Below are positions 26,505-57,058 of a stretch of DNA of 64,000 nucleotides, one piece after another. The stretch is from Saprospiraceae bacterium (GTDB lineage Bacteria; Bacteroidota; Bacteroidia; Chitinophagales; Saprospiraceae). Position 1 is the first letter of the stretch; each line of letters opens with the position of its first letter. The DNA is taken from contig JAJCYH010000012.1 of NCBI GenBank assembly GCA_029262995.1, positions 124,001-188,000 of the forward strand. The letters are read 5' to 3'. The notes under the pieces were generated by a model. The model did no database searches. It worked only from the letters and a program-made list of their open reading frames with translations, and had not been told where the DNA came from. Both the position numbers and the translations under genes were made by a program.

Positions 26505-26571
26505 TATGACTTTTATCATAGACATTAATGAGTAGTATCATATAGTAACTAAGTCAATAGGACGAAATTTA
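26505..26571 (+). promoter_or_regulatory. Tandem FNR/FixK-like boxes and -7 element, promoter of 26587-27815
   Basis: Boxes TATGA-CTTTTA-TCATA (core 26507-26518) and AATGA-GTAGTA-TCATA (core 26529-26540) lie 22 bp apart. A weak -7 element GAAATTTA (26564-26571) starts 35 nt after the start of the proximal core, placing that box near -41.5 of the predicted start site. Predicted leader about 10 nt. Confidence 0.7.
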
Positions 26572-26586
26572 TTCTAAAACAATATT

Positions 26587-26946
26587 ATGAAAATTAGTCC
26601 TGATTTAACGGTAAATTCATTGATTAATGAGTTCTCCGAATTGTTCCCTGGGTTAAAGTTGGAATTATATTTCGAAAATCATAACCAAGGAGAAAACACT
26701 TCTTCTAAAAGCATGATTGATCATGAAATTAAATTGGAGGACATTAATACAAGCATAAGAGCAGGTGAAATGTATGTAAACCCTGAAATGACTGTTGCTG
26801 AATTTGAAAATAAATTTCACAAGACATTTGGTCTTAATGTTCAAGTATTTAGAAAGTCAAATGACTTATGGCTTCAGACTTCTGCTACAGATGAATGGAC
26901 TTTAGAAGTGCAAAATAGAAAGGGTTTGCATTCCGTCCAATCTTAG
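26587..26946 (+). CDS. Conserved small protein of the stress cluster, unknown function
   Basis: 119 residues, no signal peptide or membrane segment, so cytoplasmic. Begins MKISPDLTVNSLINEFSELFPGLKLELYF and repeats a similar unit in the second half (VNPEMTVAEFENKFHKTFGLNVQVFRK), suggesting an internal duplication of a ubiquitin-like or small alpha/beta unit; it closes with LWLQTSATDEWTLEVQNRKG. I recognise it as a recurring companion of universal stress protein genes in Bacteroidota but know no function. First gene of the 26587-27815 unit, under the tandem FNR-like boxes. Confidence 0.7.
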   Translation: MKISPDLTVNSLINEFSELFPGLKLELYFENHNQGENTSSKSMIDHEIKLEDINTSIRAGEMYVNPEMTVAEFENKFHKTFGLNVQVFRKSNDLWLQTSATDEWTLEVQNRKGLHSVQS

Positions 26947-26984
26947 ATTGGCTTTTATGATTCACAAATCAAAATTGAGTACTT

Positions 26985-27815
26985 ATGAAAATAATGGTTC
27001 CTACTGATTTTTCAGAATGTGCAGATAATGCTTTAAAACAAGCTTGCCAGATAGCACAAAAACAGAATTCTGAGATACACTTGATACATGTTGGCGTATT
27101 TCCATTTTACACTAAAGATGCTATTGGCAAGGATATACTTAGTAAGCTTAAGTCTCCAATAACTCAAAGTATTGAAGAACTTCTTAGTCAACGAAAAGAA
27201 ATTGCTAGATCATATAGTATAGAGATACAAACTCATTTTGTCTTTGGAAATTTTATCTCATCCTTAATAGATTATGATGAGTCTGAGAATTTTGATTTGG
27301 TTGTAATGGGCTCTTATGGAGCGAGTGGCAAGCAAGAATGGTTTATTGGTAGTAATACGCAAAAATTAATTAGAAATCTTTCTAAGAATGTTCTTGTAAT
27401 TAAAGGTCCAAATGAGAATTTAAGTTTGAAGAATGCTATGTTTCCATCTAATTTGACTGAAAAGGACCAAGAAGCATTTGTCAAATTTTTGGAATTCCTT
27501 AAGCCTTATAATATAGTAAAAATGCATATTCTTTCGATTAACACCGCCAGCTATTTTACTCAGCCAGCACCATTAATGATGGAATTGTTGGATGATTTTA
27601 AAAAGCTTGCTTTAGGCATAAAGTGCACAACATATTTTCTATCAGATTATTCTGTCGAGGCAGGAATCAGACATTTTTCAGATGAAAATAAAATTGATAT
27701 CATTGGAATATCAAATTTGGTTAAACATCCGATTAAGAGATTCTTTCAAGGTAGTAATGTAGAAATGTTGATCAATCATTCTGATCTCCCGGTACTTGTG
27801 ATTGGTCAAGTATAA
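26985..27815 (+). CDS. Universal stress protein, tandem UspA domains
   Basis: 276 residues, two Usp domains (about 1-140 and 145-276). The first has the ATP-binding type motif MGSYGASGKQEWFIGSNTQKLI (G-x2-G-x9-GS); the second lacks a clear one (SNLVKHPIKRFFQGSNVEMLI). UspA proteins accumulate under starvation, hypoxia and redox stress and may bind ATP. Downstream of the small conserved gene by 38 bp, same direction. Confidence 0.92.
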   Translation: MKIMVPTDFSECADNALKQACQIAQKQNSEIHLIHVGVFPFYTKDAIGKDILSKLKSPITQSIEELLSQRKEIARSYSIEIQTHFVFGNFISSLIDYDESENFDLVVMGSYGASGKQEWFIGSNTQKLIRNLSKNVLVIKGPNENLSLKNAMFPSNLTEKDQEAFVKFLEFLKPYNIVKMHILSINTASYFTQPAPLMMELLDDFKKLALGIKCTTYFLSDYSVEAGIRHFSDENKIDIIGISNLVKHPIKRFFQGSNVEMLINHSDLPVLVIGQV

Positions 27816-27860
27816 ATACTTATTGAGTTATTATTATTTAAATAATATTTAAAAACTTAT

Positions 27861-28574
27861 ATGATGGAGAAGTTGAAATATATATTTCTGCTTGTACCAA
27901 TTATCATGGCATGTGAATCTGACTTCACTCTTAAAAACCCTTTACCTCCAAGTTTGGAAGCTCTAGATTATATTCCAGATAATTATATAGGTAGGTACAT
28001 CTGTCACAGCGATAGTTCCATTATTTATATTTCTGAAAAAGCTATTACTGTTGAAACAAAATCTGTTTTTGAGTCTAGTATAAATAATATTCAAGAGACA
28101 GAAAACTGCAGCATAGTTGATGGGGGTCTTTATTTTCCAGGAAAGAAAGAATGCATTCCTTTTGAATATATATCTGAAGATAGCATTCGTGCTATAGTCT
28201 GGGACTTGGATACGCTTATTGATTTGTCATCAAAGCTAGATGTTATCAAGCATTATGAAAAAGTTATGTATGTTAACAAGTCAAATGAACAAGATCATTG
28301 GTTATGCTGGACAGTAGAACACTTTGATAATGGAATATTAAAAGTTGCGATTTTAGATATCCCTACTTCAAGAGATAGTATAGAGCTAATAGCTGAATCC
28401 TATGAAACAGTTTTAATGTCTAATGGTAAATCTAAATTTATTTTAAATCCTGATTTTGCAGAATTTAAGTCAATGATTGATATGAAATTATTTAATGAAT
28501 TTGAAGTATTAGAGCCTATCAATTTAGAATTTCAAAAAACAATTAAACAAGCTGGTAAAGGAGACAAAAATTAA
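27861..28574 (+). CDS. Lipoprotein of unknown function
   Basis: 237 residues. Signal peptide with lipobox IIMAC near residue 18. The mature part begins with a short Pro-rich linker (LKNPLPPSLEAL) and continues as an alternating strand pattern (IIYISEKAITVETK, HWLCWTVEHF, ILKVAILDIP) without a domain I recognise. Two Trp-rich strands near residue 147 and a highly charged C-terminus. Probably co-transcribed with the next gene (gap 20 bp). No function assigned. Confidence 0.6.
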   Translation: MMEKLKYIFLLVPIIMACESDFTLKNPLPPSLEALDYIPDNYIGRYICHSDSSIIYISEKAITVETKSVFESSINNIQETENCSIVDGGLYFPGKKECIPFEYISEDSIRAIVWDLDTLIDLSSKLDVIKHYEKVMYVNKSNEQDHWLCWTVEHFDNGILKVAILDIPTSRDSIELIAESYETVLMSNGKSKFILNPDFAEFKSMIDMKLFNEFEVLEPINLEFQKTIKQAGKGDKN

Positions 28575-28594
28575 TTAATCCACAGAACAATATA

Positions 28595-29383
28595 ATGAGA
28601 AAAATAACAATTCTTTCTAGCAGAAATACACTATTACTCCTCTTTGCAGTAGCATTTTTTACTTTATTTAATTCTATGACAATTAATTCACAATCTGAGT
28701 TATTAGAGGAAAGGCATTTGGTCTTTCCTACATTAGATCAGCAGCTTGTTAGATTATGGATTGCTTCTCATGATCAGGATACGAAAAACGCTTCTGATGC
28801 CATTGATAGAATAAAAGAAGAATGGATCATTTTAAAGGAAGAAATAAAGACCAAGAATATAGAACATATAAATATCAAGGATTTTAACAAAGGAATTAAT
28901 GATTATGTAAATGCACTTCCTACTTTTTTAGTAAAAAAGAAATTCTCTAGTTTGAAATCAATCTCTTATCATTTGTTGTATGAATTTCGTTCGCTTCGCC
29001 AATGTCTATTTAAGACTGAATACAGTATGGATATATTATGGGAGAGTATGGACGCTTATATACTAATTAAGAATACGGTTGAGGATCGCATGTTTAATTT
29101 GAAAGAATGGTTTGAGTTTGAAGATGACATCAATGAATTTATTTGTAAATGGGAACAGTATGACCTAAAGTCTATTCAAGAAATTCAATCATACTACCCA
29201 GGAATTAAAAAGATAAAACATTCACAGCTTAAGCAAAAAGTAAATTCATGTATTGTGGATCTTTTGAACTCAGTAGAAACAGGCTATCAAAACAACTTTG
29301 TTCTTCCTTGCGATGACTTGGGTGATGCACTTGAAGACTTAATGCGTTATTATGCCAATTCAAGTATGAAACTATTAATGTAA
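28595..29383 (+). CDS. Exported helical protein of unknown function
   Basis: 262 residues with a signal peptide (LLLLFAVAFFTLFNSMTINSQ, about residues 13-33). The rest is predicted helical with regularly placed aromatic and Leu residues (QQLVRLWIASHDQDTKNASDAIDRIKEEW, YHLLYEFRSLRQCLF, NSCIVDLLNSVETGY). Helical-bundle appearance resembles periplasmic sensor or cytochrome c'-like bundles, but there is no CxxCH. Together with the preceding lipoprotein gene it is likely a two-gene envelope unit. Unknown function. Confidence 0.58.
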   Translation: MRKITILSSRNTLLLLFAVAFFTLFNSMTINSQSELLEERHLVFPTLDQQLVRLWIASHDQDTKNASDAIDRIKEEWIILKEEIKTKNIEHINIKDFNKGINDYVNALPTFLVKKKFSSLKSISYHLLYEFRSLRQCLFKTEYSMDILWESMDAYILIKNTVEDRMFNLKEWFEFEDDINEFICKWEQYDLKSIQEIQSYYPGIKKIKHSQLKQKVNSCIVDLLNSVETGYQNNFVLPCDDLGDALEDLMRYYANSSMKLLM

Positions 29384-29417
29384 AAGAAGCTTCAGCAAGG
29401 AAGATTTTATTTTTCAT

Positions 29418-30101
29418 TTACAAGGTAATGCCAATTTGGAGGTTTAGTTTTGGCTTTACCCCGTAATAGCCAAGATCAAAAACTTCGTTATCGTCATCAT
29501 AATAGTAATAATTGGTGTCCTCATTAAAATAGATGGAGTTGTCTATTGAATCATCGATTTCAGAATAACGAACTCCGCCTCCTGCCAATAAGTCCAAAGT
29601 GATTCTTTTACCTACAATAAATTTCATTCCAACAAATATTCCCGCCTCGGTTGCAAAAATATTTCGAGTGTGGTCTTCACGAACAACAGTTGGCATTTGG
29701 TTAATATTTGGGTAAAACTCTGCAGTATAGTCTCTTTCAAAACTTAATCCTAAGCCATATAATCCTACGAAGAAATCGATATTGCTAAATGGACCTAATT
29801 TAGTCTCTGTATCATTCCATTTTTTTAAATAATTCCGATACTGAATCTCTCCTTGAATGCCTCTGAATTCTTCGAAATTATTTCTCTTAAGCATAATCAT
29901 AGGTGCAATTTGAATCGAAGACTGCCCGCCCTTCATTCCGAATTCATAAGCAAATTCGAAGTATGATTTCCCAAATTGAATTGGACTTATTTTTAGATTG
30001 TCCTTGTACTCTTCGATAGACAAGGAATTGGATTGTCCATTGATATCGCTTTGCATACTTAGTAGGCCAAAGAATACGAGGAATGAGAGATATTTTTTCA
30101 T
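29418..30101 (-). CDS. Outer-membrane beta-barrel protein
   Basis: 227 residues from ATG 30101, chosen because it begins a proper signal peptide (MKKYLSFLVFFGLLSM...NGQ); 15 further codons upstream are open but lie in the CBS gene. The mature part is amphipathic strands (YFEFAYEFGMKGG, FFVGLYGLGLSFERDY, IFVGMKFIVGKRITLDLLAGGGVRY) ending with LNLQIGITL, typical of a small OmpA/OmpW-like barrel. It begins 1 bp after the CBS gene stop at 30103, so it is the last gene of that three-gene unit. A membrane component of the low-oxygen response is a guess. Confidence 0.72.
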   Translation of the reverse strand: MKKYLSFLVFFGLLSMQSDINGQSNSLSIEEYKDNLKISPIQFGKSYFEFAYEFGMKGGQSSIQIAPMIMLKRNNFEEFRGIQGEIQYRNYLKKWNDTETKLGPFSNIDFFVGLYGLGLSFERDYTAEFYPNINQMPTVVREDHTRNIFATEAGIFVGMKFIVGKRITLDLLAGGGVRYSEIDDSIDNSIYFNEDTNYYYYDDDNEVFDLGYYGVKPKLNLQIGITL

Positions 30102-30102
30102 T

Positions 30103-30528
30103 TTATAATTTTTCCAAGTTTTTAGAAAGGTATTTAATAATGTCATGAGTTGTTAAAATACCAATGACAACACCAGTATCAATGATTGGAAGGCTTTTTA
30201 GTTTATATTTAGCGAGAAGTATTATAGCTTCTTTGATGGTTTGATTTTCTTCCAGACATATTGGATTTGAGCTCATCACAGTGGTAACGGGAATATTATT
30301 CATTTCAAGGTTGGTATATGTTTTTCCAGTTGTTTTTGAAATGATATCGTTTAGATATTTCAAAATGTCTGTCTTGCTGATTATACCCTGTAATTTATTT
30401 TTTTCATCTGTTATGATAAGATGAGAAAGTTGTTCTTTCTTCATTATAGTAAGCGCATCACTGAGCATTGCAGAATAAGAAATGCTTGTTGGACTCTTGG
30501 ACATGATTTCTTTGATGGCAGTTTGCAT
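30103..30528 (-). CDS. CBS-pair protein
   Basis: 141 residues: two CBS domains, about 1-60 and 75-138, with DEKNKLQGIISKTDILKYL and IDTGVVIGILTTHDIIKYL as the adenosine-nucleotide-binding signatures. No other domain. Stand-alone CBS pairs sense AMP/ATP or S-adenosyl compounds and regulate partners. Second gene of the unit starting at 30982 (gap 7 bp). Confidence 0.9.
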   Translation of the reverse strand: MQTAIKEIMSKSPTSISYSAMLSDALTIMKKEQLSHLIITDEKNKLQGIISKTDILKYLNDIISKTTGKTYTNLEMNNIPVTTVMSSNPICLEENQTIKEAIILLAKYKLKSLPIIDTGVVIGILTTHDIIKYLSKNLEKL

Positions 30529-30535
30529 AATTATT

Positions 30536-30982
30536 TTATTTATTTATCAATGCGGGACCAACAACAGATTTTAAGATATCTATGGGAGTTACTATACCGG
30601 CAATTTTACCCTCTCTCTCCACTATAATGGAATGAATATCGTTTTTGATGAAAATCTCTACAGCATCAGCAATAGAACTATTTTCGTCCATACAATAAGG
30701 ATCTTCAGTCATTATTTCCTTTGCAAGAATTGATCGCATTATCTTCTCATTCTCTCTATCGCTTCTAGCAATTTGAAGTCTGGTAAAGTGGTGTTGAAGT
30801 TGTTTATAATCCGCTGCGCTAATAATACCAATGGCTGTGTTTTCTTCATCTACAACAGGTAAGTGATGAAATTTTTGTGTATTAAATATTTCAGCTATTT
30901 CTGTTCCAAGGCAAAGAGGTCCAACAGTTTTTACATCCTTGGTCATAATACTCTGTAATGTCTTGTTTAAGATAATATCCAT
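30536..30982 (-). CDS. CBS-pair protein
   Basis: 148 residues, two CBS domains (about 5-65 and 85-145) with VDEENTAIGIISAADYKQL and VEREGKIAGIVTPIDILKSV. First gene of a three-gene leftward unit (CBS, CBS, outer-membrane barrel) under its own tandem FNR-like boxes, 144 bp downstream of the Usp gene. Likely an energy-status sensor; target unknown. Confidence 0.9.
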   Translation of the reverse strand: MDIILNKTLQSIMTKDVKTVGPLCLGTEIAEIFNTQKFHHLPVVDEENTAIGIISAADYKQLQHHFTRLQIARSDRENEKIMRSILAKEIMTEDPYCMDENSSIADAVEIFIKNDIHSIIVEREGKIAGIVTPIDILKSVVGPALINK

Positions 30983-31043
30983 ATATATAAATTAATGTTT
31001 ATTGAAATCAGAATATACCACACTTAAACCTTTAATATTGACA

Positions 31044-31110
31044 TAAAGGTCACATATTAAGTCATAAGTTATTATGATTACAATCAAAACAATTTATGAT
31101 GTTAATCAAA
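31044..31110 (-). promoter_or_regulatory. Tandem FNR-like boxes and -7 element, promoter of the CBS-CBS-barrel unit
   Basis: Cores TGA-TTACAA-TCA (31075-31086) and TGA-TGTTAA-TCA (31097-31108) lie 22 bp apart; both read ATGAT-N4-ATCAA, one base off the classical FNR box. On the minus strand the -7 element GACCTTTA starts at 31051, 35 nt from the start of the proximal core. A further TGAC-N6-GTCA lies at 31039-31052. Confidence 0.68.
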
Positions 31111-31126
31111 GATATGATCTATTAAG

Positions 31127-31930
31127 TTAGTCTGTTAGAATCAACAATGGTCGGTCAATGTCAAACAGTTCCATTTTAGTGATGCTTCTTTTAAACAGTT
31201 CCTGAAACCAATTCTTTCTGTGATGAATCATACAAAGAATGTCTGCATCATGCTTTTTAGCATATTCACTTAATGTGGAAGAAATTGAACCAGATTTTTT
31301 TACAGAGTCTAGTACAAAATCAACGTCTCTAAAAAATTCGTCCAATGCAGCATCTAGCGTCATTTTTTCTTCATCATCTTCTCTTATATGTACCAATCTG
31401 ATATTGGCATCAAAGACATTGCAAATACTGAAAATAGGTTGAAGGATTTCTTTGTTTTCGATGAGTTTACTGTCAATGCCTAGTACAAGGGTTTGCACTT
31501 TACGATAAGTAATATTATCAGGTATAGTAAGTACAGGTTTCCCCGATTCTTTAATGCAGTATTCCGTTACAGAACCAATAGTAACATCTTTTAATGCAGT
31601 CAAACCTTTAGTGCCAGTTACAATCCAGTCATAGTGTTGATGCCTTGAATAAGATACTATGTATTCTTTGGGCTCGGCTCTTATGATATGGTGAGAAAAC
31701 TTAATATCTGGACCTAGTTTTTTAAGTTCAGAGATAAGCATTTCAAGATCTCTCGTAGCATTTTCTTTAAGTAAGTCATCCATATGACTAAACATTGAAG
31801 ACCGGTGTTGGGTCTCCATGCAGTGTAAAAATGTAATCTCACCGCCACCTACATCATTGAGAAACCTTGTGGTCCATCCTGCAGCTTTAACTGACACCTG
31901 GGAAAAATCAATTGGGCAAAGTATTTTCAT
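31127..31930 (-). CDS. Universal stress protein, tandem UspA domains
   Basis: 267 residues in two Usp domains. The first has VTGTKGLTALKDVTIGSVTEYCI with the G-x2-G-x9-GS nucleotide pattern; the second is shorter and degenerate (MIHHRKNWFQELFKRSITKMEL). Last of the four-gene leftward unit CBS, Trx-Usp, Usp, Usp (30 bp after the preceding gene). Confidence 0.9.
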   Translation of the reverse strand: MKILCPIDFSQVSVKAAGWTTRFLNDVGGGEITFLHCMETQHRSSMFSHMDDLLKENATRDLEMLISELKKLGPDIKFSHHIIRAEPKEYIVSYSRHQHYDWIVTGTKGLTALKDVTIGSVTEYCIKESGKPVLTIPDNITYRKVQTLVLGIDSKLIENKEILQPIFSICNVFDANIRLVHIREDDEEKMTLDAALDEFFRDVDFVLDSVKKSGSISSTLSEYAKKHDADILCMIHHRKNWFQELFKRSITKMELFDIDRPLLILTD

Positions 31931-31960
31931 AGTTGACTTTTAGAATCCTAAAAGTAAGGA

Positions 31961-32788
31961 TTAGTCATGAAGAAACAATACAGGTATCGAGGATTTTAAT
32001 ATCAATTCTTTTGAAAGGCTTTTAAACAATAGAGAATGCATTAAAGAATGGTTTTCTGCTATCACAATCAAAAGCTCGGCATTATTGTCATAGGCATGTT
32101 TTAGGAGTGAATCTCCAATATTCTTGCTATTTACGGTGGAAATGTCAAATGCGAAATCAACATTTTCATTTTCAAACAGTTCAGAAACAATAGTTTTGTT
32201 TTCAGTAGAATGAGTACTTGAAAGAAAATCTTTTACATGTATAAATTTAAGGTAGGCATTATGGTTTTCATTCCATCTTTTGATTTCATTTATAATTTGC
32301 TTCTTTGCAAGATGATAATCTGTGGCTACTACCACTTTGTCAAAGCCACTAAAAGATGAATTTTTTGGGATTAGATAGACAGGAATGAATAATTGTTTTA
32401 CCAAACCTAATGATATCGTTCCAACCCACTTATCAAATAAGTCATACTTATCTCTGGTCCCAACAAATGCTTTATCGATAAAATTGCTTTTCGCAAATTT
32501 GACAATTGTATGTACTGGATCTCCTGTTAGGACTTGGAGGCTTATATTTTTAGGAAGCGTTTCTAATTGCAGATGTTTAATAATAATATCATTCATTTCT
32601 TTTTGAATGTTATTGGCATGCGTTTTTCCAGCTGCAAGCATATTTGTGTTGTCTACATTCAACAGCCCTGAATAGCAATGTAGAATATACAATTCATCAT
32701 TCTCATCGGAATAGTCAATAGCATATTTAATCGCATTTAATGAAATTTCAGAGAAGTCAAACGGAACAAGAATTTTACGTAATGACAT
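31961..32788 (-). CDS. Universal stress protein, tandem UspA domains
   Basis: 275 residues, two Usp domains (first begins MSLRKILVPFDFSEISLNAIKYAIDYS; second about 140-275). The first carries VGTRDKYDLFDKWVGTISLGLV, a variant of the nucleotide loop, the second IAENHSLMHSLLFKSLSKELIL. Only 5 bp after the upstream Trx-Usp gene, so co-translated with it. Confidence 0.9.
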   Translation of the reverse strand: MSLRKILVPFDFSEISLNAIKYAIDYSDENDELYILHCYSGLLNVDNTNMLAAGKTHANNIQKEMNDIIIKHLQLETLPKNISLQVLTGDPVHTIVKFAKSNFIDKAFVGTRDKYDLFDKWVGTISLGLVKQLFIPVYLIPKNSSFSGFDKVVVATDYHLAKKQIINEIKRWNENHNAYLKFIHVKDFLSSTHSTENKTIVSELFENENVDFAFDISTVNSKNIGDSLLKHAYDNNAELLIVIAENHSLMHSLLFKSLSKELILKSSIPVLFLHD

Positions 32789-32793
32789 AATAT

Positions 32794-33876
32794 CTAGGAT
32801 TGTAAAACCAATAAAGGGATAGTGGAGTTGATACTCATTTGTTTTGTTTCACTTTTGTGAAAAATGCTTTCAAGGAAGCCTCTTTTTTTATGAGCCATTA
32901 TCAAAAGGTCAATGTTGGCATGTTCTATATATTCGTTAATGCCATGATTAACTTCTGTATCTTGAATAAAATGATTTTCAACTGTTGTGTTTGGAAATTT
33001 AGTCTTCCATGTATTCAGCAAATCAAAATACATATCCATTTCATCTTCTTTTTCAATATGGATCAGATGAATCTCTGCATTGAATCTTTCTGCCATAGCA
33101 TTTACGGTATCCATAAGTTTGTCTGGAATCTCATCATACTCACATGCATATGCGACTTTCTTAATAGGCCTATAGACTGCTTTCGGAGGAACTATAAAAA
33201 CCGGCTTGTTGGCTCTTTGGGCTACCGTTGTAGAAACTGAGCCAAAAAAATGCTTAAACACTCCTGTATCTCCAGTGCTACCCATTACTATGTATGCATC
33301 TTCTTCGTCTGCTAGCCTAACTATTTCTTCTACTGGAAATCCCAATTTGAATGATTTAATAATTTTGGTCTCATGCGTTTTTTCTCCTACCCACTTTTTG
33401 CTGACTTTTTCATAGAATTCATTCAATTGGGATTCTTTCATTTCTTTGATAGAATTTTCTGTTAAGGTGTTAACATCAACAGCGGAAGGAAGATAGCAAT
33501 GCATTAAATTCAATATACCATTGACTGATCTTGCCAAACCAACAGCATAGGCTACAGCATTCCATGATGTTTCAGAAAAGTCTATTGGAACGATTATCTT
33601 TTTCATATTGCCAAAATTTCCTTCTTTTAATAATGATAAATTAACACGGTTGATAAACTCATTGATTGTTTCGCCTTTAAGATAATTAATATTAATGTGA
33701 TCATTGACTTTGATCGTAGGTATTGAGACAATTCCTTCTTTAATCATTTCCTTTATGTCCTTTATTTCATCAATGACAAGTTCAATCCCAGCTTTTTGAG
33801 CTTGATCCTTAATCTTCATTTTGACATATTCAAAAGTTGATGTTGGTTGACCATATAATCTAAGATGGATTATCAT
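32794..33876 (-). CDS. Thioredoxin-like domain fused to tandem UspA domains
   Basis: 360 residues. Residues 1-85 look like a small thioredoxin/glutaredoxin fold (MIIHLRLYGQPTSTFEYVKMKI, then GIVSIPTIKVNDHINI with the cis-Pro), but the CxxC active site is missing. Then follow two Usp domains, the first beginning MKKIIVPIDFSETSWNAVAYAVGLA near residue 91, with VMGSTGDTGVFKHFFGSVSTTVA as ATP loop. The Met at the junction could also start a shorter product. Second gene of the unit, 6 bp after CBS. Likely a stress-adaptor whose Trx-like part binds partners rather than does redox chemistry (inference). Confidence 0.82.
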   Translation of the reverse strand: MIIHLRLYGQPTSTFEYVKMKIKDQAQKAGIELVIDEIKDIKEMIKEGIVSIPTIKVNDHININYLKGETINEFINRVNLSLLKEGNFGNMKKIIVPIDFSETSWNAVAYAVGLARSVNGILNLMHCYLPSAVDVNTLTENSIKEMKESQLNEFYEKVSKKWVGEKTHETKIIKSFKLGFPVEEIVRLADEEDAYIVMGSTGDTGVFKHFFGSVSTTVAQRANKPVFIVPPKAVYRPIKKVAYACEYDEIPDKLMDTVNAMAERFNAEIHLIHIEKEDEMDMYFDLLNTWKTKFPNTTVENHFIQDTEVNHGINEYIEHANIDLLIMAHKKRGFLESIFHKSETKQMSINSTIPLLVLQS

Positions 33877-33882
33877 TATACT

Positions 33883-34299
33883 TTATTCTTCTGATAGCTT
33901 TCTTATAATATCAAATGTTGTTATTATGCCTACTAGCTTGCCTTCTTTTACTATTGGAATAGCATGAAACAAATTTTCCTTAAAGACTTCAACGGCTACT
34001 CCAATCCTTTCATGGGGCTCTAATTTGGCTATACCTTTTGTCATGATATCTTCCACTTTGTGTGTTTTCATTCTGAATTCATCGATTCTATTATCTGTTG
34101 ACTGATCATTAAATCCTCTCTTGAAAAACAGATAGTCAGACTTGCTTACGATCCCAACAAGCTTTTCATCTTCTACTACAGGAATATGATGAATCCTGTG
34201 ATTTTTGAATAATTGTTCAACTTCTTTGATCGTGTCTTCTCGCTCAACACTGATTAAGTTTTCAGACATCAATGTAGAAACCGGCGCTAATAAATCCAT
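33883..34299 (-). CDS. CBS-pair protein
   Basis: 138 residues, two CBS domains (about 5-65 and 78-136; VEDEKLVGIVSKSDYLFF and VKEGKLVGIITTFDIIRKL). First gene of the four-gene leftward Usp unit, divergent from the heme-PAS kinase gene; the 95 bp between them hold the tandem FNR-like boxes and a consensus -7 element facing this gene, with a predicted leader of about a dozen nucleotides. Confidence 0.9.
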   Translation of the reverse strand: MDLLAPVSTLMSENLISVEREDTIKEVEQLFKNHRIHHIPVVEDEKLVGIVSKSDYLFFKRGFNDQSTDNRIDEFRMKTHKVEDIMTKGIAKLEPHERIGVAVEVFKENLFHAIPIVKEGKLVGIITTFDIIRKLSEE

Positions 34300-34317
34300 A
34301 GTTTGATAATTTTATTC

Positions 34318-34384
34318 CAAATCTATATGTAGCTTTGGGTTTTCTAAATGACTTTTGTCATTAAAATTTATGACAATCATCATA
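34318..34384 (-). promoter_or_regulatory. Tandem FNR-like boxes and consensus -7 element, promoter of the CBS-Usp operon
   Basis: AATGAC-TTTT-GTCATT (34347-34362, perfect palindrome) and TATGA-CAATCA-TCATA (34369-34384, perfect arms) have cores 22 bp apart. On the minus strand TAGATTTG (34325 down to 34318) is a full TAnnTTTG match and starts 35 nt from the start of the proximal core, so the boxes centre near -42 and -64. Confidence 0.75.
34330..34337 (+). promoter_or_regulatory. -7 element facing the heme-PAS kinase gene
   Basis: TAGCTTTG matches TAnnTTTG on the plus strand. A transcript from here would start near 34344, just before the tandem boxes, so an occupied box would block it. No clear -33 element at the standard distance. 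Confidence 0.4.
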
Positions 34385-34394
34385 CCTTCATACT

Positions 34395-35612
34395 GTGCAT
34401 AGAATCTCTAATGATATTGGATTAAGGCTAAAAGCCATCATCGATACTGCAATTGATGGAATAATCACGATTGATGATAAAGGATTAATTGAGTCAGTAA
34501 ATCTTTCTGCTCTTAGCTTATTTGGCTATAGCCAAAATGAATTATTAGGAGAAAACATATCCATTCTGATGCCTGATCCATACAAAAGAGAGCATGATGG
34601 TTATTTAGAGACTTACAATAGGACTAGGATACCAAAGATTATTGGTATAGGAAGGGAAGTTCAAGGGATGACAAAAAATGGTCGGATATTTCCTTTGCGT
34701 TTAGCAGTATCTGAGGTTATTCTTAATGACAGGATAATTTTTACTGGAATTGTACATGACCTCAGTGAAATTAAAAGGACACAGGATGAATTGCGCCTTG
34801 TTAATGAAGCCCTTGAAGAAAAAGTAGAGGAAAGGACCGTTGAGTTGGAACGGCTTATCAATGATTTACTATTGACAAATAGAAAACTTGAAAAAAGTGA
34901 GCTTGAACTTACTGAGGCACTGAATAAGGAAATTCAATTGAATGAATTAAAATCTAGATTCGTATCAATGGCTTCACATGAGTTTAGAACACCATTAAGC
35001 ACAATATTATCTTCGGTTTCTCTAATTTCAAAGTATACCACTGAAGAACAAGATGATAACAGACAGAAGCATGTAGAACGCATTAAATCAGCTGTTGTTA
35101 ACCTAACTGGTATTTTGAATGACTTTCTATCCTTAAGCAAGATTGAAGAAGGTAAAATTGAAATTAACAAGCGTATTATAGATTTATATGGCCTTTGTAA
35201 GGCAGTAAAAGATGATGTAAAATCCTTATTGAAAGAAGGACAAGATATCACGCACAAGGTACTGGGCGAGGAAAAAGAAATTCAAACAGATGAACGTATT
35301 CTTAAAAATGTATTGTTTAACCTCGTCTCAAATGCTATAAAGTATTCTGATGATAGCATAGAATGTATAGTTGAGTATAGGAAAGAAAGATTTGTTGTAC
35401 ATGTAAAGGATTATGGCATTGGAATTCCTAAAAATGAGCAGACTCTTTTATTCGATAGATTTTTTAGGGCTTCTAATGTTGAAGTGATACAAGGCACTGG
35501 ATTAGGACTTAATATTGTTTCAAGATATGTTAATTTATTACATGGAGAAATTAACTTTGAGAGCAAAGAGGGTGAGGGTTCTTGTTTTTCAGTTGCGTTA
35601 CCATATATTTGA
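34395..35612 (+). CDS. FixL-like heme-PAS sensor histidine kinase
   Basis: 405 residues starting at GTG 34395; no ATG is available and a stop lies in frame at 34371. Residues 8-122 are a PAS domain very like the oxygen-sensing domain of FixL: LMPDPYKREHDGYLETY with the predicted proximal heme ligand His67, and IIGIGREV with Arg87 at the place of the FixL Arg that contacts bound oxygen. A coiled coil (130-185) leads to the kinase: H-box MASHEFRTPLS (His195), N-box NLVSNAIKYS, G1 DYGIGIPKN, G2 GTGLGLNIVSRY. No membrane segment, so a soluble sensor. Gene 21 bp upstream of its likely partner. Heme binding is inferred; some non-heme PAS domains share part of the motif. Confidence 0.85.
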   Translation: MHRISNDIGLRLKAIIDTAIDGIITIDDKGLIESVNLSALSLFGYSQNELLGENISILMPDPYKREHDGYLETYNRTRIPKIIGIGREVQGMTKNGRIFPLRLAVSEVILNDRIIFTGIVHDLSEIKRTQDELRLVNEALEEKVEERTVELERLINDLLLTNRKLEKSELELTEALNKEIQLNELKSRFVSMASHEFRTPLSTILSSVSLISKYTTEEQDDNRQKHVERIKSAVVNLTGILNDFLSLSKIEEGKIEINKRIIDLYGLCKAVKDDVKSLLKEGQDITHKVLGEEKEIQTDERILKNVLFNLVSNAIKYSDDSIECIVEYRKERFVVHVKDYGIGIPKNEQTLLFDRFFRASNVEVIQGTGLGLNIVSRYVNLLHGEINFESKEGEGSCFSVALPYI

Positions 35613-35633
35613 TTTTTTTAAAGGGCTTTAAAA

Positions 35634-36689
35634 ATGAAAAAGAAAATTCTAGTAATTGAAGATACATTAGAAGTAAGAGAGAACATCTGCGAAATTCTTG
35701 AATTAGCAGGCTATGAAGTTTTGAATGCATCCAATGGGAAAAGAGGTTTAGTATTGACACAGACCCAAATTCCTGATTTAATTCTTTGTGATGTTATGAT
35801 GCCTGAACTTGACGGATATGGTGTATTAAAAATTTTAAATAACAACAGCAAGACCAATAAAATTCCCTTTATCTTTTTAACAGCCAAAGCAGAGAAAAAT
35901 GATTTTCGGAAGGGTATGGGACTTGGAGCAGATGATTATATTACCAAACCCTTTGATGATACAGATCTTCTTGAGGCCATAGAAATGAGATTGAATAAAT
36001 ACGATATATTTTCTAGCCAAATGAAAAACTCCGAGGAAGGATTAAAAAGATTCTTTTCAGAGGCTAAAGCAAAAGCGGAATTTGAGAAACTATCAGAAGA
36101 CAGAGAAATTAGAATCTATAACAAGAAAGATATTATTTATGAATATGGAGGGTCTCCACGTTGGTTATTCTTTATCGTAGAGGGCAGTGTTAAGATTTAT
36201 CAAAACAATGAATTTGGAAAGGAATTGATCATACATCTCTATAATTCTGGTGATTTCTTCGGCTTTTTCCCTTTAATAAATGCAAAGAATTACAGTGATT
36301 CCGCTTTGGCATTGGAACAAACAAGGGTTAGATTAATTCCAAAAGCAGATTTTACATTGTTGTTATATAACAATAGAGAGTTTGCTGCACAGTTCATTAA
36401 AATGCTTGCTAATTCAGTTGCTGAAATTGAACAGGATTTGATAGAATTGGCCTATAGCTCAGTTAGAAGAAAGGTTGCAATGGCTTTGGTTGCATTTGTA
36501 AAAGAAAATTCAAATTCAAATGAATTGGAAATTAAAGTATCCCGAGATGATCTTGCCGCAAGAGCAGGAACAGCCAAAGAAACTTTAATAAGAACACTGT
36601 CAGATTTCAAATCTGAAAATATCCTAGAAATTGAAGGAGGAAATGTAATAATTAAAAATCTAGATAAGCTTCAGAGCATGCCTCAGTAA
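35634..36689 (+). CDS. Response regulator: receiver domain fused to Crp/FNR-type DNA-binding module
   Basis: 351 residues. Receiver domain 1-125 with phospho-acceptor Asp53 (ILCDVMMPELDGYG), switch Thr in FLTAKAE and Lys105 (ITKPFD). A cNMP-binding-like beta-roll (about 155-255) follows, then a Crp-type winged helix (about 270-340) with SRDDLAARAGTAKETLIRTLSDF. The recognition helix keeps the Glu and Arg that read TGA half-sites in FNR and CRP. In rhizobia FixL passes its signal to FixJ, which then induces FixK, a Crp-family protein; here receiver and FixK-like output are one chain. It should bind the TGA-N6-TCA boxes around it (inference). Confidence 0.9.
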   Translation: MKKKILVIEDTLEVRENICEILELAGYEVLNASNGKRGLVLTQTQIPDLILCDVMMPELDGYGVLKILNNNSKTNKIPFIFLTAKAEKNDFRKGMGLGADDYITKPFDDTDLLEAIEMRLNKYDIFSSQMKNSEEGLKRFFSEAKAKAEFEKLSEDREIRIYNKKDIIYEYGGSPRWLFFIVEGSVKIYQNNEFGKELIIHLYNSGDFFGFFPLINAKNYSDSALALEQTRVRLIPKADFTLLLYNNREFAAQFIKMLANSVAEIEQDLIELAYSSVRRKVAMALVAFVKENSNSNELEIKVSRDDLAARAGTAKETLIRTLSDFKSENILEIEGGNVIIKNLDKLQSMPQ

Positions 36690-36711
36690 ATGACATTTTT
36701 TTTTCAAGTAA

Positions 36712-36870
36712 TTAATTCCCAAACTTTACTCCTAATAAGGCACTTAGCAAAAGTGGAGCAGCTAACAATGCGAGTAATGGTAAGTGACCAAAGAGCGCAA
36801 TGAATACTATGCCCATCATCAAATAATATCTTAGAATTACAGTTTTAATACTTGCTTGGAATAATTGCAT
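36712..36870 (-). CDS. Small hydrophobic membrane protein, 52 residues
   Basis: Starts at ATG 36870 (MQLFQASIKTVILRYYLMMG) and ends at TAA 36712-36714. After a short basic amphipathic start come two hydrophobic stretches (about residues 17-27 and 29-47) broken by GHLP, consistent with one hairpin or one long membrane helix. It converges on the REC-Crp gene (22 bp between stops). What makes it credible is its promoter: tandem FNR-like boxes with the standard 22-bp spacing and a -7-like element in place, the same as for the stress genes. Function unknown; perhaps a small regulator or a stabiliser of a respiratory complex. Confidence 0.72.
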   Translation of the reverse strand: MQLFQASIKTVILRYYLMMGIVFIALFGHLPLLALLAAPLLLSALLGVKFGN

Positions 36871-36889
36871 AACTTTTAATTTTGTAGTA

Positions 36890-36956
36890 TAAAAGTGAGC
36901 ATTTACTTTCCTATAGAAATTGACCTTGATCAGTTGAATAGATGATTTTGGTCAGA
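36890..36956 (-). promoter_or_regulatory. Tandem FNR-like boxes and -7 element, promoter of the 52-residue membrane protein
   Basis: Cores TGA-CCTTGA-TCA (36921-36932) and TGA-TTTTGG-TCA (36943-36954) lie 22 bp apart; minus-strand element CACTTTTA starts at 36897, 35 nt from the start of the proximal core. Predicted leader about 14 nt. From 36957 to 37038 nothing else is visible. Confidence 0.65.
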
Positions 36957-37038: not shown

Positions 37039-38178
37039 CTAAAAGAAAATCATTGTTATGATATATGAGAATATTGAGAGGGCAATACCATACATAAAGA
37101 AGTTATAGCACCATCGGAGATAATCAAATTTTCTACCCAATGACTTTCCTAAAAAGAATAGATCTCTAGTAATTGAATTATCAAGAATATCATCATTGGA
37201 TACAACCTCCTTTATAGCATTTTCATATTCATCGATGTTCATTCTATAGTAATTCCCAAAGAAGAAAAGATTTGATTTTTTGCTTTTTATATCTTCCGGC
37301 TTTGTCTTTCCGCTCATCTTTATGGGCCTGGTAGATAGTGTCGCAAAAATCATTGAGGTTAAGCAAACCATTGAAAGTATAAAGGTAGGTACATAAAGCT
37401 GAGTATTAGTTGCTGCTCTTTCTATCATTAAAGGTAATCCTACAGTAATTATTACTGCATTAACACTTAACATAATATTGGCCTTATTATCAGCAATTGA
37501 AGATAGGTCAATGTGATTTCTTAATGAAGTTTTGAATTGTGTTTGTGCACCCTTGTTTGTCGAAATAGTAGACTCTGCTTTTGCTTTCTTATTAAGCTTT
37601 TTGAGTTTTTTTAAATTCTTTTTCTTTCCCTTCTTAAAAAGGGCTTTGCCTTCCTTGGTTTTATAATTATGGTTTTTTAAAAATTCTATGTTTTGTTTTA
37701 TCCAGGATTCTTTGTCAATATCAGTTTCTCCCCTAAAGCTCATTTCCTTTCTTAGGCTTTCACTGATTTCATCATATTCTGAAGAAGCCAATCCACTTAA
37801 ATCGGCATCTTTGATCATATTGCAAAGTTTATCTTCACCACTCCATTCCATTTTGGTAGCTTCAATACATGATAACACCTTAGAGATTTTAGCTTCAGGA
37901 TAATCATTTTCAAGAAGAAATTTCTTGGCAAGAATTTTTGAATGATTTTCATGGTCACAAGCATTCTCACTAAAACCAAGATCGTGAAAGTAGGCTGCTA
38001 AGGTAAGTATTTCCTTATTTTCATCATCAAGATTTGCTTCGGAAGTAAGCTTGTCCAAAGCAGCAACAACCCTTTCTGTATGCAGAAAATTGTGGTATTC
38101 AAATTCATTAGGAACATTTTTTGAAAAAATGGTCTTTACATGATTCCTTGCCTTTTCTATGATTGGTTGATTAATCAA
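37039..38178 (-). CDS. HD-domain protein with Pycsar-effector type membrane domain (PycTM/DUF5706)
   Basis: 379 residues. Residues 1-165 are an HD phosphohydrolase: His29/His33 (YHNFLHTERV), His65-Asp66 (AAYFHDLGF) and Asp126 (MIKDADLSGL) give a complete metal site. A very Lys-rich linker (about 180-205) follows, then a PycTM/DUF5706 region (about 215-379): RNHIDLSSIADNKANIMLSVNAVIITVG, a second hydrophobic segment and a last one at the C-terminus. In Pycsar antiphage systems PycTM proteins are membrane effectors triggered by cyclic pyrimidine nucleotides. The start is TTG 38178, overlapping the TGA stop of the upstream gene (TTGA). No cyclase gene is recognisable nearby. Confidence 0.82.
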   Translation of the reverse strand: MINQPIIEKARNHVKTIFSKNVPNEFEYHNFLHTERVVAALDKLTSEANLDDENKEILTLAAYFHDLGFSENACDHENHSKILAKKFLLENDYPEAKISKVLSCIEATKMEWSGEDKLCNMIKDADLSGLASSEYDEISESLRKEMSFRGETDIDKESWIKQNIEFLKNHNYKTKEGKALFKKGKKKNLKKLKKLNKKAKAESTISTNKGAQTQFKTSLRNHIDLSSIADNKANIMLSVNAVIITVGLPLMIERAATNTQLYVPTFILSMVCLTSMIFATLSTRPIKMSGKTKPEDIKSKKSNLFFFGNYYRMNIDEYENAIKEVVSNDDILDNSITRDLFFLGKSLGRKFDYLRWCYNFFMYGIALSIFSYIITMIFF

Positions 38179-54733: not shown

Positions 54734-55003
54734 TTAATTAGCTGTTTTTAAGAAGTCTGCAATTTTTACAGCCTCTGGTTCTGTTAAGTTTGCTCTTACA
54801 CGCATGTGCATAACGGCTACATCCCACTCCGCATCACTGAAAGATTCGGGTGATGGTGTATTGTGACATCTAAGGCAATTTTCACCCCAAAGTTGTGCAC
54901 CTGTTTTGGCTTCCACTATGGTGCTGGTTGATCTGCAACTACTTATAATTGCAATGAGTGAAAGTAGGGTGAATAAAAAAATGATGATAGGTATCTTTTT
55001 CAT
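54734..55003 (-). CDS. Small cytochrome c lipoprotein
   Basis: 89 residues. Lipobox LIAIISSC near residue 23, heme site ENCLRCH near 43, candidate Met ligand in VAVMHMRVRANL. Close to diheme-class cytochrome domains that bind one heme with a hydrophobic C-terminal helix (EAVKIADFLKT). Follows the porin gene by 27 bp and is last in the unit 56701 to 54734. Confidence 0.85.
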   Translation of the reverse strand: MKKIPIIIFLFTLLSLIAIISSCRSTSTIVEAKTGAQLWGENCLRCHNTPSPESFSDAEWDVAVMHMRVRANLTEPEAVKIADFLKTAN

Positions 55004-55030
55004 TATAATTGATTTTATTTTGTTTAAAAA

Positions 55031-56245
55031 TTAGAATCCGATTGCCCAATGAATTAAGAAGGCATTTCCTTCTGCACCACCATGACCACCTGCTTCTTCT
55101 ATGTTTGAGTTACTAATTTGGTAACTCACTTTAAAGACGGTTCTCCAATCGATCCAGTAGTTTATTCCTAAATCAACTTGACTTTGATCAGTTTCCCATT
55201 CAGCACCTTCTGGTGTTTTTAAAGTAGAATAACGTCCAGCAAATTCCAGTCTTCGGACGAAACTATTTTCTACGAGTGCAGGACGCAAAGAGACTTGAGC
55301 AAACCATGTAGTACTATTGTTATCAAAAGTGATTAATTCTTCTGGATTCTCATGTGAAGGATAGTTAGCATCATCCACATTGACGGCTGAATATTGAGCT
55401 TTTATATCAAGTACACTGCTAATTGAAGATAAAGTTTTGATATATGAAATATCAAAAGCGTAATGCAATGCAGTGACATCTTCTTTGTCTGTATCTTTCG
55501 CTCCCACTTTCCCATACATTCCAGATAGTCCAAATTCAAGACTTGAATCAGAAAATGGGAAAAACCCAAATCTACTACCAAACGTTTTTCCTTTATTATT
55601 ATCTGGAAAAATTGCATGATGAAGAATCCCTGCTTCTTCGGGCTCTTCTTCACCATCATTTAATTGAGATCCATTGACTACATAGATGGAATAGTTGACT
55701 TTTATGTTACCTAGGTACGAACCACCTCTTAGCTCTAATCCGATGTCATTGGAAGGAATAATTCCATCATGCCCAGCTCCTAAAGGTGCTGTTGGAATCT
55801 TGTTAATCCAAGCTGGATGAAGATTTGGAACAAAAATTCCAAATGGCACTAATATTTTACCAGCTCTAAAAGTCAAATTTTTCGATAGAAGATAGGACAT
55901 ATTGGCGTATTCAATCTCAAGCTCAATTTCTCCACCAGATTGTTCTAAAGCCCATTCACTTTCAAATAGCAAGCGGTCAGATTGCTTGTAGATGAATAAG
56001 GGATTAAACGAGCCTCCAACAAAGCTGAACTCTTCATCTGTAATTTGCAAGCCAGAGTGAGCGTATCCTCTCAATAGAAATTTACTTTTCCCTGGTCTAT
56101 ACGTGTCACTTTCATTTTTGAGTAATTCAATCTCTTGTTTCAGTTTTTGAATCTCATCAGTTGATTGTACTTCTTGAGCATTTGCATTTTTATTCATAAA
56201 TGCGAGCATTAACGTCATAAATAAAATCAAATATTGATTTTTCAT
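55031..56245 (-). CDS. OprP/OprO-like outer-membrane porin
   Basis: 404 residues. Signal peptide (about 1-23), short coiled coil (DEIQKLKQEIELLKNE), then a 16- to 18-stranded barrel: YAHSGLQITDEEFSFVGG, FESEWALEQSGGEIELEIEYANMSYL, and the closing FLIHWAIGF with C-terminal Phe. The middle contains Asn/Asp-rich loops. Such porins pass phosphate, arsenate or other anions. Lies between two cytochrome genes and may serve as a channel for a copper or electron-acceptor related function (unclear). Confidence 0.8.
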   Translation of the reverse strand: MKNQYLILFMTLMLAFMNKNANAQEVQSTDEIQKLKQEIELLKNESDTYRPGKSKFLLRGYAHSGLQITDEEFSFVGGSFNPLFIYKQSDRLLFESEWALEQSGGEIELEIEYANMSYLLSKNLTFRAGKILVPFGIFVPNLHPAWINKIPTAPLGAGHDGIIPSNDIGLELRGGSYLGNIKVNYSIYVVNGSQLNDGEEEPEEAGILHHAIFPDNNKGKTFGSRFGFFPFSDSSLEFGLSGMYGKVGAKDTDKEDVTALHYAFDISYIKTLSSISSVLDIKAQYSAVNVDDANYPSHENPEELITFDNNSTTWFAQVSLRPALVENSFVRRLEFAGRYSTLKTPEGAEWETDQSQVDLGINYWIDWRTVFKVSYQISNSNIEEAGGHGGAEGNAFLIHWAIGF

Positions 56246-56272
56246 AATTATTGAGTTTTTTTAAATAATAAG

Positions 56273-56701
56273 TTAATTCAGCGATCTAATAAAATTGACC
56301 AATTGCCATCTCTGTTCTTCAGTTAAAGTTTCTTTATAGGAAGCCATCGGTGCTTTCCCTTCTGTCATTTTCCAAAAGACTGCACCATCGGTTTGATTTT
56401 GAACTATGTCCTTCGTGAAATTAGAAGGACGAGGTTTTATTGCCATTCCAGCGATTCCATCTCCCTTCCCTTTTGTTCCATGACAAATGGCACAGTAGAG
56501 TTTATATAATTCTTTTCCAGCAAGTGTCGCTTTTTCCATTCCTTTATATGGATTTTTCACCTTGTCGGCACTTGCAGGTGCAGTCCAATTCCCATCTTGT
56601 CCCAATAATTGATTTTCTGTAGTCCCGACAATTATCAGAAAAAAGAAAATCAAGAAAGTAGAAATGGTTATTTGTTTAATACAAAGAATATTATCAATCA
56701 T
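56273..56701 (-). CDS. Periplasmic cytochrome c (mono-heme, class I)
   Basis: 142 residues with a signal sequence (about 9-30) and CAICH near residue 70 in YKLYCAICHGTKGKGDGIAG. The Met ligand is in KAPMASYKETLTEEQRW, and the tail LVNFIRSLN is the typical C-terminal helix. First gene of the unit cytochrome, porin, cytochrome; an FNR-like site lies 130 bp upstream. Confidence 0.9.
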   Translation of the reverse strand: MIDNILCIKQITISTFLIFFFLIIVGTTENQLLGQDGNWTAPASADKVKNPYKGMEKATLAGKELYKLYCAICHGTKGKGDGIAGMAIKPRPSNFTKDIVQNQTDGAVFWKMTEGKAPMASYKETLTEEQRWQLVNFIRSLN

Positions 56702-57058
56702 AATTTTATTTTAGTAAAAATTAGTTATATCATTCAAATCAATACAGACTTGTTGATTATCCAATTTGTCTATATCTCAAAAATATAGAATACTCAGATT
56801 TATAATTTTATCTAATGTCATTGCTGGCAATGATCTTAGTCATTTTTGTTCGATTAAAAAAAAACAGAGGCATCACCGTTAAACAGTGATACCTCTGCGT
56901 TTAGAATTCCCTTAATGCTAATATCTGTAATTGGACCTTGACTGTAAATAGTGGAAATACAGTTTAAGGACATAAACTGAAGAAAATAATCTAGCTTAAA
57001 TAAGCTATTAAATTTTTGCCTTTTCTACATTTAACAATGTTAAGTAAGCAAAACGCTT
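56702..57058. promoter_or_regulatory. 357-bp region with terminator and several palindromes
   Basis: No gene. Palindromes read off: AATGA-TCTTAG-TCATT (56829-56844, FNR-like), overlapping the end of TCATTGCTGGCAATGA (56818-56833); CAGTTTAAGGACATAAACTG (56960-56979, 7-bp arms); TAGCTTAAATAAGCTA (56992-57007); TTAACAATGTTAA (57031-57043). The FNR-like site lies upstream of the 56701 cytochrome gene but is single and lacks the -7-like element at the distance seen elsewhere. The strong terminator is listed separately. Confidence 0.5.
56856..56897 (-). terminator. Strong rho-independent terminator, minus strand
   Basis: CAGAGGTATCAC on the minus strand (56897-56886) pairs with GTGATGCCTCTG (56876-56865) with one wobble and a 9-nt loop; a run of nine T follows on the minus strand (56864-56856). 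It ends transcription from the 57463 HMA gene. Confidence 0.85.

Follow-up and report, generated by a model that had tools for sequence, protein, structure and literature searches.

Introduction

In mycobacteria, the DosST-DosR system links a heme-sensor kinase to a response regulator whose targets include universal stress protein (Usp), CBS-domain and Hsp20 genes, often behind paired boxes; DosR is a LuxR-type regulator and reads a different box. FixJ, the response regulator of the FixL-FixJ-FixK cascade of the Alphaproteobacteria, consists of a receiver and a LuxR-type helix-turn-helix (HTH) domain. The FixJ-FixK wiring of this cascade, and the hFixL-FxkR-FixKf system of the Rhizobiaceae, in which a FixL-type sensor is wired in another way, are described in the sections of PMC4999443 on which we draw, and the microoxia tables of Bradyrhizobium diazoefficiens list Usp, CBS, FixI, CcoO and FixP (PMC6515984, in part). 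Here, we analyse a 64,000-nucleotide stretch of DNA (hereafter, the window) from a Saprospiraceae bacterium (GenBank assembly GCA_029262995.1, contig JAJCYH010000012.1, positions 124,001–188,000 of the forward strand), in which a predicted FixL-type PAS-histidine kinase lies directly upstream of REC-Crp, a response regulator that joins a receiver to a Crp-type DNA-binding half, and in which promoters with tandem FNR/FixK-like boxes recur with one spacing.

Little is known of how environmental Bacteroidota, such as the Saprospiraceae, sense a drop in oxygen. In work on a reactor with intermittent aeration, the Crp/FNR homologue of a Saprospiraceae genome was predicted to sense carbon, and the same paper notes, in the portion consulted, that scant prior knowledge limits inference for some community members (PMC8510549). 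On the basis of promoter layout, spacing and conservation, gene content, co-occurrence, and the kinase and regulator sequences—all of which are direct observations—we consider it likely that the kinase and REC-Crp form a two-component oxygen switch, acting on tandem boxes to activate microaerobic respiration and stress genes.

Results

Four promoters in the window share one geometry

The window contains four mismatch-free pairs of TGA-N6-TCA boxes, each with a start-to-start distance of 22 bp (P1–P4; Table 1), exactly as described in a first-pass annotation of this DNA. Read on the coding strand, the distal box comes first in all four promoters; 10 bp separate it from the proximal box, and 23 bp lie between the latter and a −7-like octamer. 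Counted toward the downstream gene, the start of each octamer is exactly 35 nt from that of the proximal box, and the A..TTT[A/G] element proposed at this distance is present in 4/4; three of the octamers share only 4/6 places with TAnnTTTG. The first-pass annotation considered chance a very unlikely source of this four-fold geometry, and the shuffles agree: in 100 dinucleotide-preserving shuffles of the window, exact 22-bp pairs occurred at a mean of 0.01 per shuffled window, with a maximum of 1, and never at the four observed. Lone boxes, by comparison, are at chance level (33 in the window versus 34.6 expected), and so it is the pairing that constitutes the signal. A fifth, probable promoter (P5), absent from the first-pass annotation, is a two-mismatch site ahead of a cytochrome c gene. 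By eye, P3 read in the opposite direction, toward the kinase gene, has no −7 element at +35.

The layout recurs across the source genome

The source genome comprises 3.77 Mb in 32 contigs, and the nearest named relatives of its REC-Crp are from Saprospiraceae. A gap of 10 bp is the commonest among genomic box pairs with gaps of 0–30 (12/39; runner-up gap, 5/39). Three of these 12 pairs lie inside long open reading frames (ORFs). For the remaining nine, read toward the chosen target gene, the NAnnTTTR score is 41/45 at +35, compared with at most 25 at other offsets from +23 to +59, and at most 27 when the better direction is taken each time. A scan of the whole genome, which had been suggested as a check, found the full layout six times without mismatch and 11 times with up to one; at up to two mismatches there are 22 sites, versus six for the reversed pattern. 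Seven of the sites with up to one mismatch lie outside the window (Table 1), and the two-mismatch sites include those of a YceI gene and of the window's cytochrome c gene. A second CBS gene, divergent from the CBS gene on contig C23, is preceded by one unpaired box, with TACTTTTG at the layout's usual distance. The earlier proposal of a regulon local to the REC-Crp neighbourhood is thus supported for the window sites, but not in its restriction to them: sites elsewhere in the genome and in many Bacteroidota rule out a local-only regulon.

Spacing is precise in relatives

We examined flanks of up to 10 kb around the best 80 of 578 REC-Crp relatives (hereafter, the named loci). The sequence titles of 77/80 are from Bacteroidota (Saprospiraceae, Dyadobacter, Runella, Fulvivirga, Chryseolinea and Chitinophagaceae among them); L151, L152 and L209 carry proteobacterial titles, taken as they stand. 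When box pairs were collected at any gap from 0 to 60, with no layout assumed, 60/113 had a gap of 10, while the reversed box gave seven pairs, none of them at gap 10. TAnnTTTG stands at +35 (n=46) and +57 (n=42), with 0–3 occurrences at the other offsets from +12 to +79 except +58; among exact tandem pairs, it lies at +35 in 25/28. A minor 23-bp class is hinted at (L132–L211) by gap 11 in 10/113 pairs and seven TAnnTTTG at +58.

Unique promoters found by their proximal box have at least 4/6 distal letters at −22 in 35/45 cases, and those anchored on the distal box have at least 4/6 proximal letters in 40/42, from which we conclude that pairing is the norm and that boxes on their own are exceptional. 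With up to one mismatch, the named loci contain 92 sites, of which 38 are exact (reversed control, 0). Their consensus consists of TGAY-N4-RTCA boxes and a −7 of TAnnTTTG; positions outside these carry at most 0.37 bit of information, which argues against the sites being copied from a single repeat.

In Escherichia coli class II promoters, the proximal box lies at the same distance from the core element as here, where 29.5 bp separate its centre from the start of the −7 and the second box follows upstream on the same DNA face. These distances agree with the class II plus class I layout, near −41.5 and −63.5 from putative start sites, that the first-pass annotation had suggested. TAnnTTTG is the −7 consensus of Bacteroides fragilis, confirmed in Flavobacterium johnsoniae, according to the part of PMC7366714 consulted.

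Genes behind the sites

In the other family genomes, a few of them lacking REC-Crp, 87 unique sites were surveyed. Behind these lie 73 genes; for 14/87 sites no ORF of at least 50 amino acids (aa) starts within 300 bp. Pfam counts among the matches listed (25/44 families) are: Usp 10, CBS 10, CcoI-type ATPase 5, COX1 4, rhodanese 3, radical SAM 3, metallo-beta-lactamase fold 2, pyridine-nucleotide oxidoreductase 2, and single members of Hsp20, YceI, PPDK and POR_N. In a background sample of 69 genes, taken from the source genome only, no Usp, CBS, COX1 or E1-E2 ATPase occurs among the listed families with at least two members (25/129 families), and so each has at most 1/69; radical SAM has 2/69. 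Because this background is limited to the listed families and to one genome, a Fisher value for the targets that took background hits as zero is disregarded. Targets at the named loci, identified by eye, include CcoN-like, CcoI-like, HemN-like, CBS, Usp, Hsp20-like and RIC-like genes, the kinase, and REC-Crp itself. Sulfide-oxidation-like genes also figure among the targets. The link to cbb3 oxidase and hemN is one of promoter position in relatives; the source genome contributes a CcoI-type ATPase at one mismatch. Two small families also recur behind this type of promoter: that of the 119-aa protein of P1 (L166, L197, L320) and that of the 52-aa membrane protein of P4 (L284, L287, L289, L300, L307). 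Together, the gene content supports a predicted regulon of low-oxygen respiration and stress genes, in many Bacteroidota.

The kinase and the regulator

The FixL-type PAS of the kinase next to REC-Crp had gone unmentioned in the first-pass annotation. Among PAS entries in the PDB, heme domains of rhizobial FixL match it best (1e-26), and two FixL PAS sequences share 44% and 41% identity with it. When PAS sequences were aligned (the window kinase, two FixL and seven partner kinases of other loci), 10/10 had the histidine in the heme-ligand column; we take this histidine to be the heme ligand, as in FixL. The partner kinases of L147, L149, L176, L195, L199, L202 and L209 have another PAS type, in which the column is kept and the strict FixL motif is lost, suggesting that the sensor has diverged there under a conserved regulator.

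In REC-Crp, the phosphorylation residues E9, D10, D53, T83 and K105 are invariant in 14/14 sequences, and the recognition helix reads AKE[ST].IR in 30/30 family members. The E and R of this helix read TGA in CRP and FNR. Six Crp-type proteins of the genome exceed the HTH_Crp_2 cut-off, and only REC-Crp has the E..R pair; in the other five, the E position is occupied by Q, Q, Q, S and V. A further match, under the cut-off, looks DtxR-like. The HTH of another Crp-family regulator lies at about 4228–4452 (+) of the window (L016, helix SRQTVARVL) and is not expected to read TGA/TCA.

The only cysteines of REC-Crp are C19 and C52, both in the receiver, with none after C52. In the cAMP pocket of CRP, the key residues are Gly-Glu and Arg-Ser; by eye, the corresponding place in REC-Crp has GDFFGFFPLINAKNYSDSA, without this motif, and cAMP control was set aside on that ground. 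A structure model of REC-Crp (predicted template modelling score 0.38) was not used.

Site number tracks REC-Crp

The comparison of these promoters in related genomes, also suggested earlier, was made over 100 family genomes, of which 70 have REC-Crp at E ≤ 1e-40. All 100 were searched for the layout with up to one mismatch, alongside a reversed-pattern control. The 70 genomes with REC-Crp hold 496 sites (control, 4), with at least one site in 66/70 and at least two in 62/70. The 30 genomes without it hold 33 (control, 4), with at least one in 11/30 and at least two in 6/30. With kinship uncorrected, the association of REC-Crp with sites gives Mann-Whitney 5e-10 and, for at least two sites, Fisher 4e-11. 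A genome of the same genus that lacks REC-Crp has zero sites at up to one mismatch. The CcoI-type ATPase is found in 36/50 genomes with REC-Crp versus 6/30 without (p 8e-6, kinship again uncorrected). Together with the sole E..R helix, the co-occurrence favours the adjacent REC-Crp as the probable regulator, in line with the earlier proposal.

Some of the genomes counted as lacking REC-Crp merit individual mention. G049, with four sites, contains a broken REC-Crp piece; this C-terminal piece lies on the same stretch as a CBS gene and part of a kinase (L252, G049:C319:4500-7400). G009 and G037 have two sites each and no E..R protein among those read; in G037, a receiver match falls in a 333-aa frame that lacks a Crp half.

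Features and neighbouring genes

Table 1. Promoters and genes of the window, with layout sites found elsewhere in the genome (given by contig)
Feature	Position	Strand	Details	Proposed target or gene behind
P1	26507–26571	+	distal 26507–26518, proximal 26529–26540, −7-like GAAATTTA 26564–26571; exact full layout	119-aa gene and Usp
P2	31044–31108	-	distal 31097–31108, proximal 31075–31086, −7-like GACCTTTA 31044–31051; exact	CBS gene 30536–30982
P3	34318–34382	-	distal 34371–34382, proximal 34349–34360, −7 TAGATTTG 34318–34325; exact	CBS, thioredoxin-Usp, Usp and Usp genes
P4	36890–36954	-	distal 36943–36954, proximal 36921–36932, −7-like CACTTTTA 36890–36897; exact	52-aa membrane protein
P5 (probable)	56778–56842	-	perfect distal 56831–56842, degenerate proximal 56809–56820 (4/6), perfect −7 TATTTTTG 56778–56785	
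119-aa protein	26587–26946	+	no Pfam or NCBIfam match	
Usp	26985–27815	+		
CBS-domain protein	30536–30982	-		
Usp protein	31127–31930	-		
Usp protein	31961–32788	-		
Thioredoxin-like + Usp protein	32794–33876	-	weak matches to both	
CBS-domain protein	33883–34299	-	first gene behind P3	
PAS-histidine kinase	34395–35612	+	FixL-type heme PAS (predicted); start codon uncertain; directly upstream of REC-Crp	
REC-Crp response regulator	35634–36689	+	receiver, cNMP-type fold (cNMP_binding), Crp HTH (HTH_Crp_2)	proposed activator of P1–P5
52-aa membrane protein	36712–36870	-		
Cytochrome c	56273–56701	-	probable P5 target	
Site	C23		≤1 mismatch	CBS gene
Second site	C23		≤1 mismatch	inside ORF
Site	C30		≤1 mismatch	105-aa protein
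Sites, two directions	C20		≤1 mismatch	CcoI/FixI-type ATPase; YgaP-like membrane protein
Site	C32		≤1 mismatch	CBS gene
Site	C16		≤1 mismatch	no clear gene behind

Behind the probable P5, genes for a cytochrome c, a porin-like protein and a second small cytochrome c-like protein stand in a row (54734–56701, -). The model of the 119-aa protein has a predicted local distance difference test score of 86, yet no PDB match at E ≤ 0.001. Divergent from P1 lies a haloalkane dehalogenase-like alpha/beta hydrolase, over the NCBIfam cut-off (NF002043; 25529–26419, -). The 52-aa gene adjoins a gene for an HD + PycTM protein (Pfam PF18967 'Pycsar effector protein', 1.9e-25; 37039–38178, -).

Discussion

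A candidate oxygen switch

The proposed switch would work as follows. Heme would be held by the PAS histidine of the kinase, and oxygen bound to the heme would keep the kinase off. At low oxygen, the kinase would phosphorylate D53 of REC-Crp. In REC-Crp, a Crp/FNR-type DNA-binding half takes the place of the output domain of FixJ, and so the protein would act as FixJ and FixK in one. Once phosphorylated, two dimers may sit side by side on abutting 22-bp TGAY-N4-RTCA sites, the proximal dimer (about −41.5) serving as a class II activator and the distal dimer (about −63.5) providing a class I contact and cooperativity. Targets would include (i) cbb3 oxidase and its copper ATPase, HemN, cytochrome c and sulfide-oxidation-like genes, (ii) CBS, Usp and Hsp20 genes, and (iii) the two small families; in some genomes, the kinase and regulator would themselves be targets. 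For heme, oxygen response, phosphotransfer, binding, activation and start sites, this scheme draws on what is known of the respective protein families.

A broader reading, which we put forward tentatively and hold with less than even confidence, is that of an oxygen regulon, widespread in the Bacteroidota, whose promoters follow their own grammar: phosphorylation would assemble two Crp-type dimers as an obligate unit on abutting 22-bp sites, the pair of boxes rather than a lone box would be the functional element, the receiver-switched regulator would be a merger of FixJ and FixK, and FNR-like proteins would take over where REC-Crp has been lost.

Counter-evidence and alternatives

Several observations weigh against the proposed switch. 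Firstly, the association between REC-Crp and site number is uncorrected for kinship, and is incomplete in both directions. Four of the 70 REC-Crp genomes have no site at up to one mismatch, and the CcoI-type ATPase is missing from 14/50 REC-Crp genomes; genomes without REC-Crp exceed their control and six of them hold at least two sites, which means that another protein can use the layout. G027 and G078 have six sites each, no REC-Crp, and a stand-alone FNR-like protein whose helix is of the E..SR type, while a search of G070, which has at least two sites and no REC-Crp, turned up no candidate regulator. Secondly, only 43/80 named loci contain a site when one mismatch is allowed, and the distal box is missing from 7/45 proximal-box promoters. 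Thirdly, the strict FixL motif is present in the adjacent kinase at 19/30 family loci (20 regex matches, with L078 discounted by eye) and near only 22/80 named loci, the histidine alone being kept elsewhere. A FixL-type kinase as the universal partner of REC-Crp is not borne out by the last of these counts.

The scarcity of the strict motif outside the nearest families also bears on what is sensed. REC-Crp could work the boxes in response to a signal other than oxygen, with the PAS sensing redox state, nitric oxide or another ligand, and the RIC-like, sulfide-oxidation-like and YceI genes among the targets would suit such a signal. We regard this as unlikely: in the source genome, the PAS resembles that of FixL and keeps the histidine, and the cbb3, CcoI and HemN targets speak for low oxygen.

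Alternatively, a stand-alone Crp/FNR-family regulator encoded elsewhere in the genome could work the boxes, REC-Crp being just a neighbour of some of them. The genome does encode five other Crp-type proteins over the cut-off, and G027 and G078 illustrate how many sites may accompany a stand-alone E..SR protein. Yet the five paralogues lack E where it would be expected (an expectation from general knowledge of the family, in a HTH_Crp_2 search that may miss a paralogue), and site number tracks REC-Crp across the 100 genomes; a stand-alone regulator as the main reader thus seems quite improbable. In G027 and G078 themselves, where the FNR-like proteins (L267 and L272) have SREA[VI]SR helices, an exchange of regulator on the same promoters is possible.

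That the boxes instead repress, with REC-Crp or a relative blocking RNA polymerase, is very unlikely. P3 does end 12 bp before the annotated kinase start, where a bound protein could hinder kinase expression, but the fixed class II distance of the tandem pairs fits activation; an exact distance would be superfluous for a repressor. As origins of the layout, chance and a dispersed repeat can be dismissed. Lone boxes are at chance level, but nothing was found to favour chance for pairs, and the shuffles, reversed-pattern controls and peaks of gap and −7 offset speak against it, as does the low information outside boxes and −7 against a repeat.

Comparison with known systems

The layout, in which the box gap and the distance to the −7 are rigid down to the single base, can be searched for in any Bacteroidota genome as a read-out of a low-oxygen regulon, and it makes the proposed FixL-to-REC-Crp wiring directly testable. 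Among the matches listed, from a literature covered in part, there is no description of a FixL plus REC-Crp pair, or of the tandem layout, in Bacteroidota.

FNR and Anr share with the present system the box type, the target classes and the class II distance. FNR carries a 4Fe-4S cluster on cysteines; the Crp half of REC-Crp, in contrast, has no cysteines. DosR is LuxR-type, whereas REC-Crp has a receiver, cNMP_binding and HTH_Crp_2, and so the likeness to DosST-DosR is one of logic only. The hFixL-FxkR-FixKf system relays its signal via a separate FixK-type protein, unlike REC-Crp. In the source genome, no E..R helix that would mark a separate FixK-type reader of TGA/TCA is found in the five other Crp-type proteins over the cut-off, in a HTH_Crp_2 search that could miss some.

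The closest match is with FixL-FixJ-FixK, which has in common with this locus the heme-PAS kinase (here predicted), FNR/FixK-type boxes, and cbb3, CcoI/FixI, HemN, Usp and CBS targets. The differences are that (i) receiver and Crp half are one protein here, with no LuxR-type FixJ, and (ii) the boxes abut in tandem at a fixed gap ahead of a Bacteroidota −7. The kind of system is known; what appears to be new is the merging of FixJ and FixK into a single receiver-Crp protein with a tandem-box promoter grammar.

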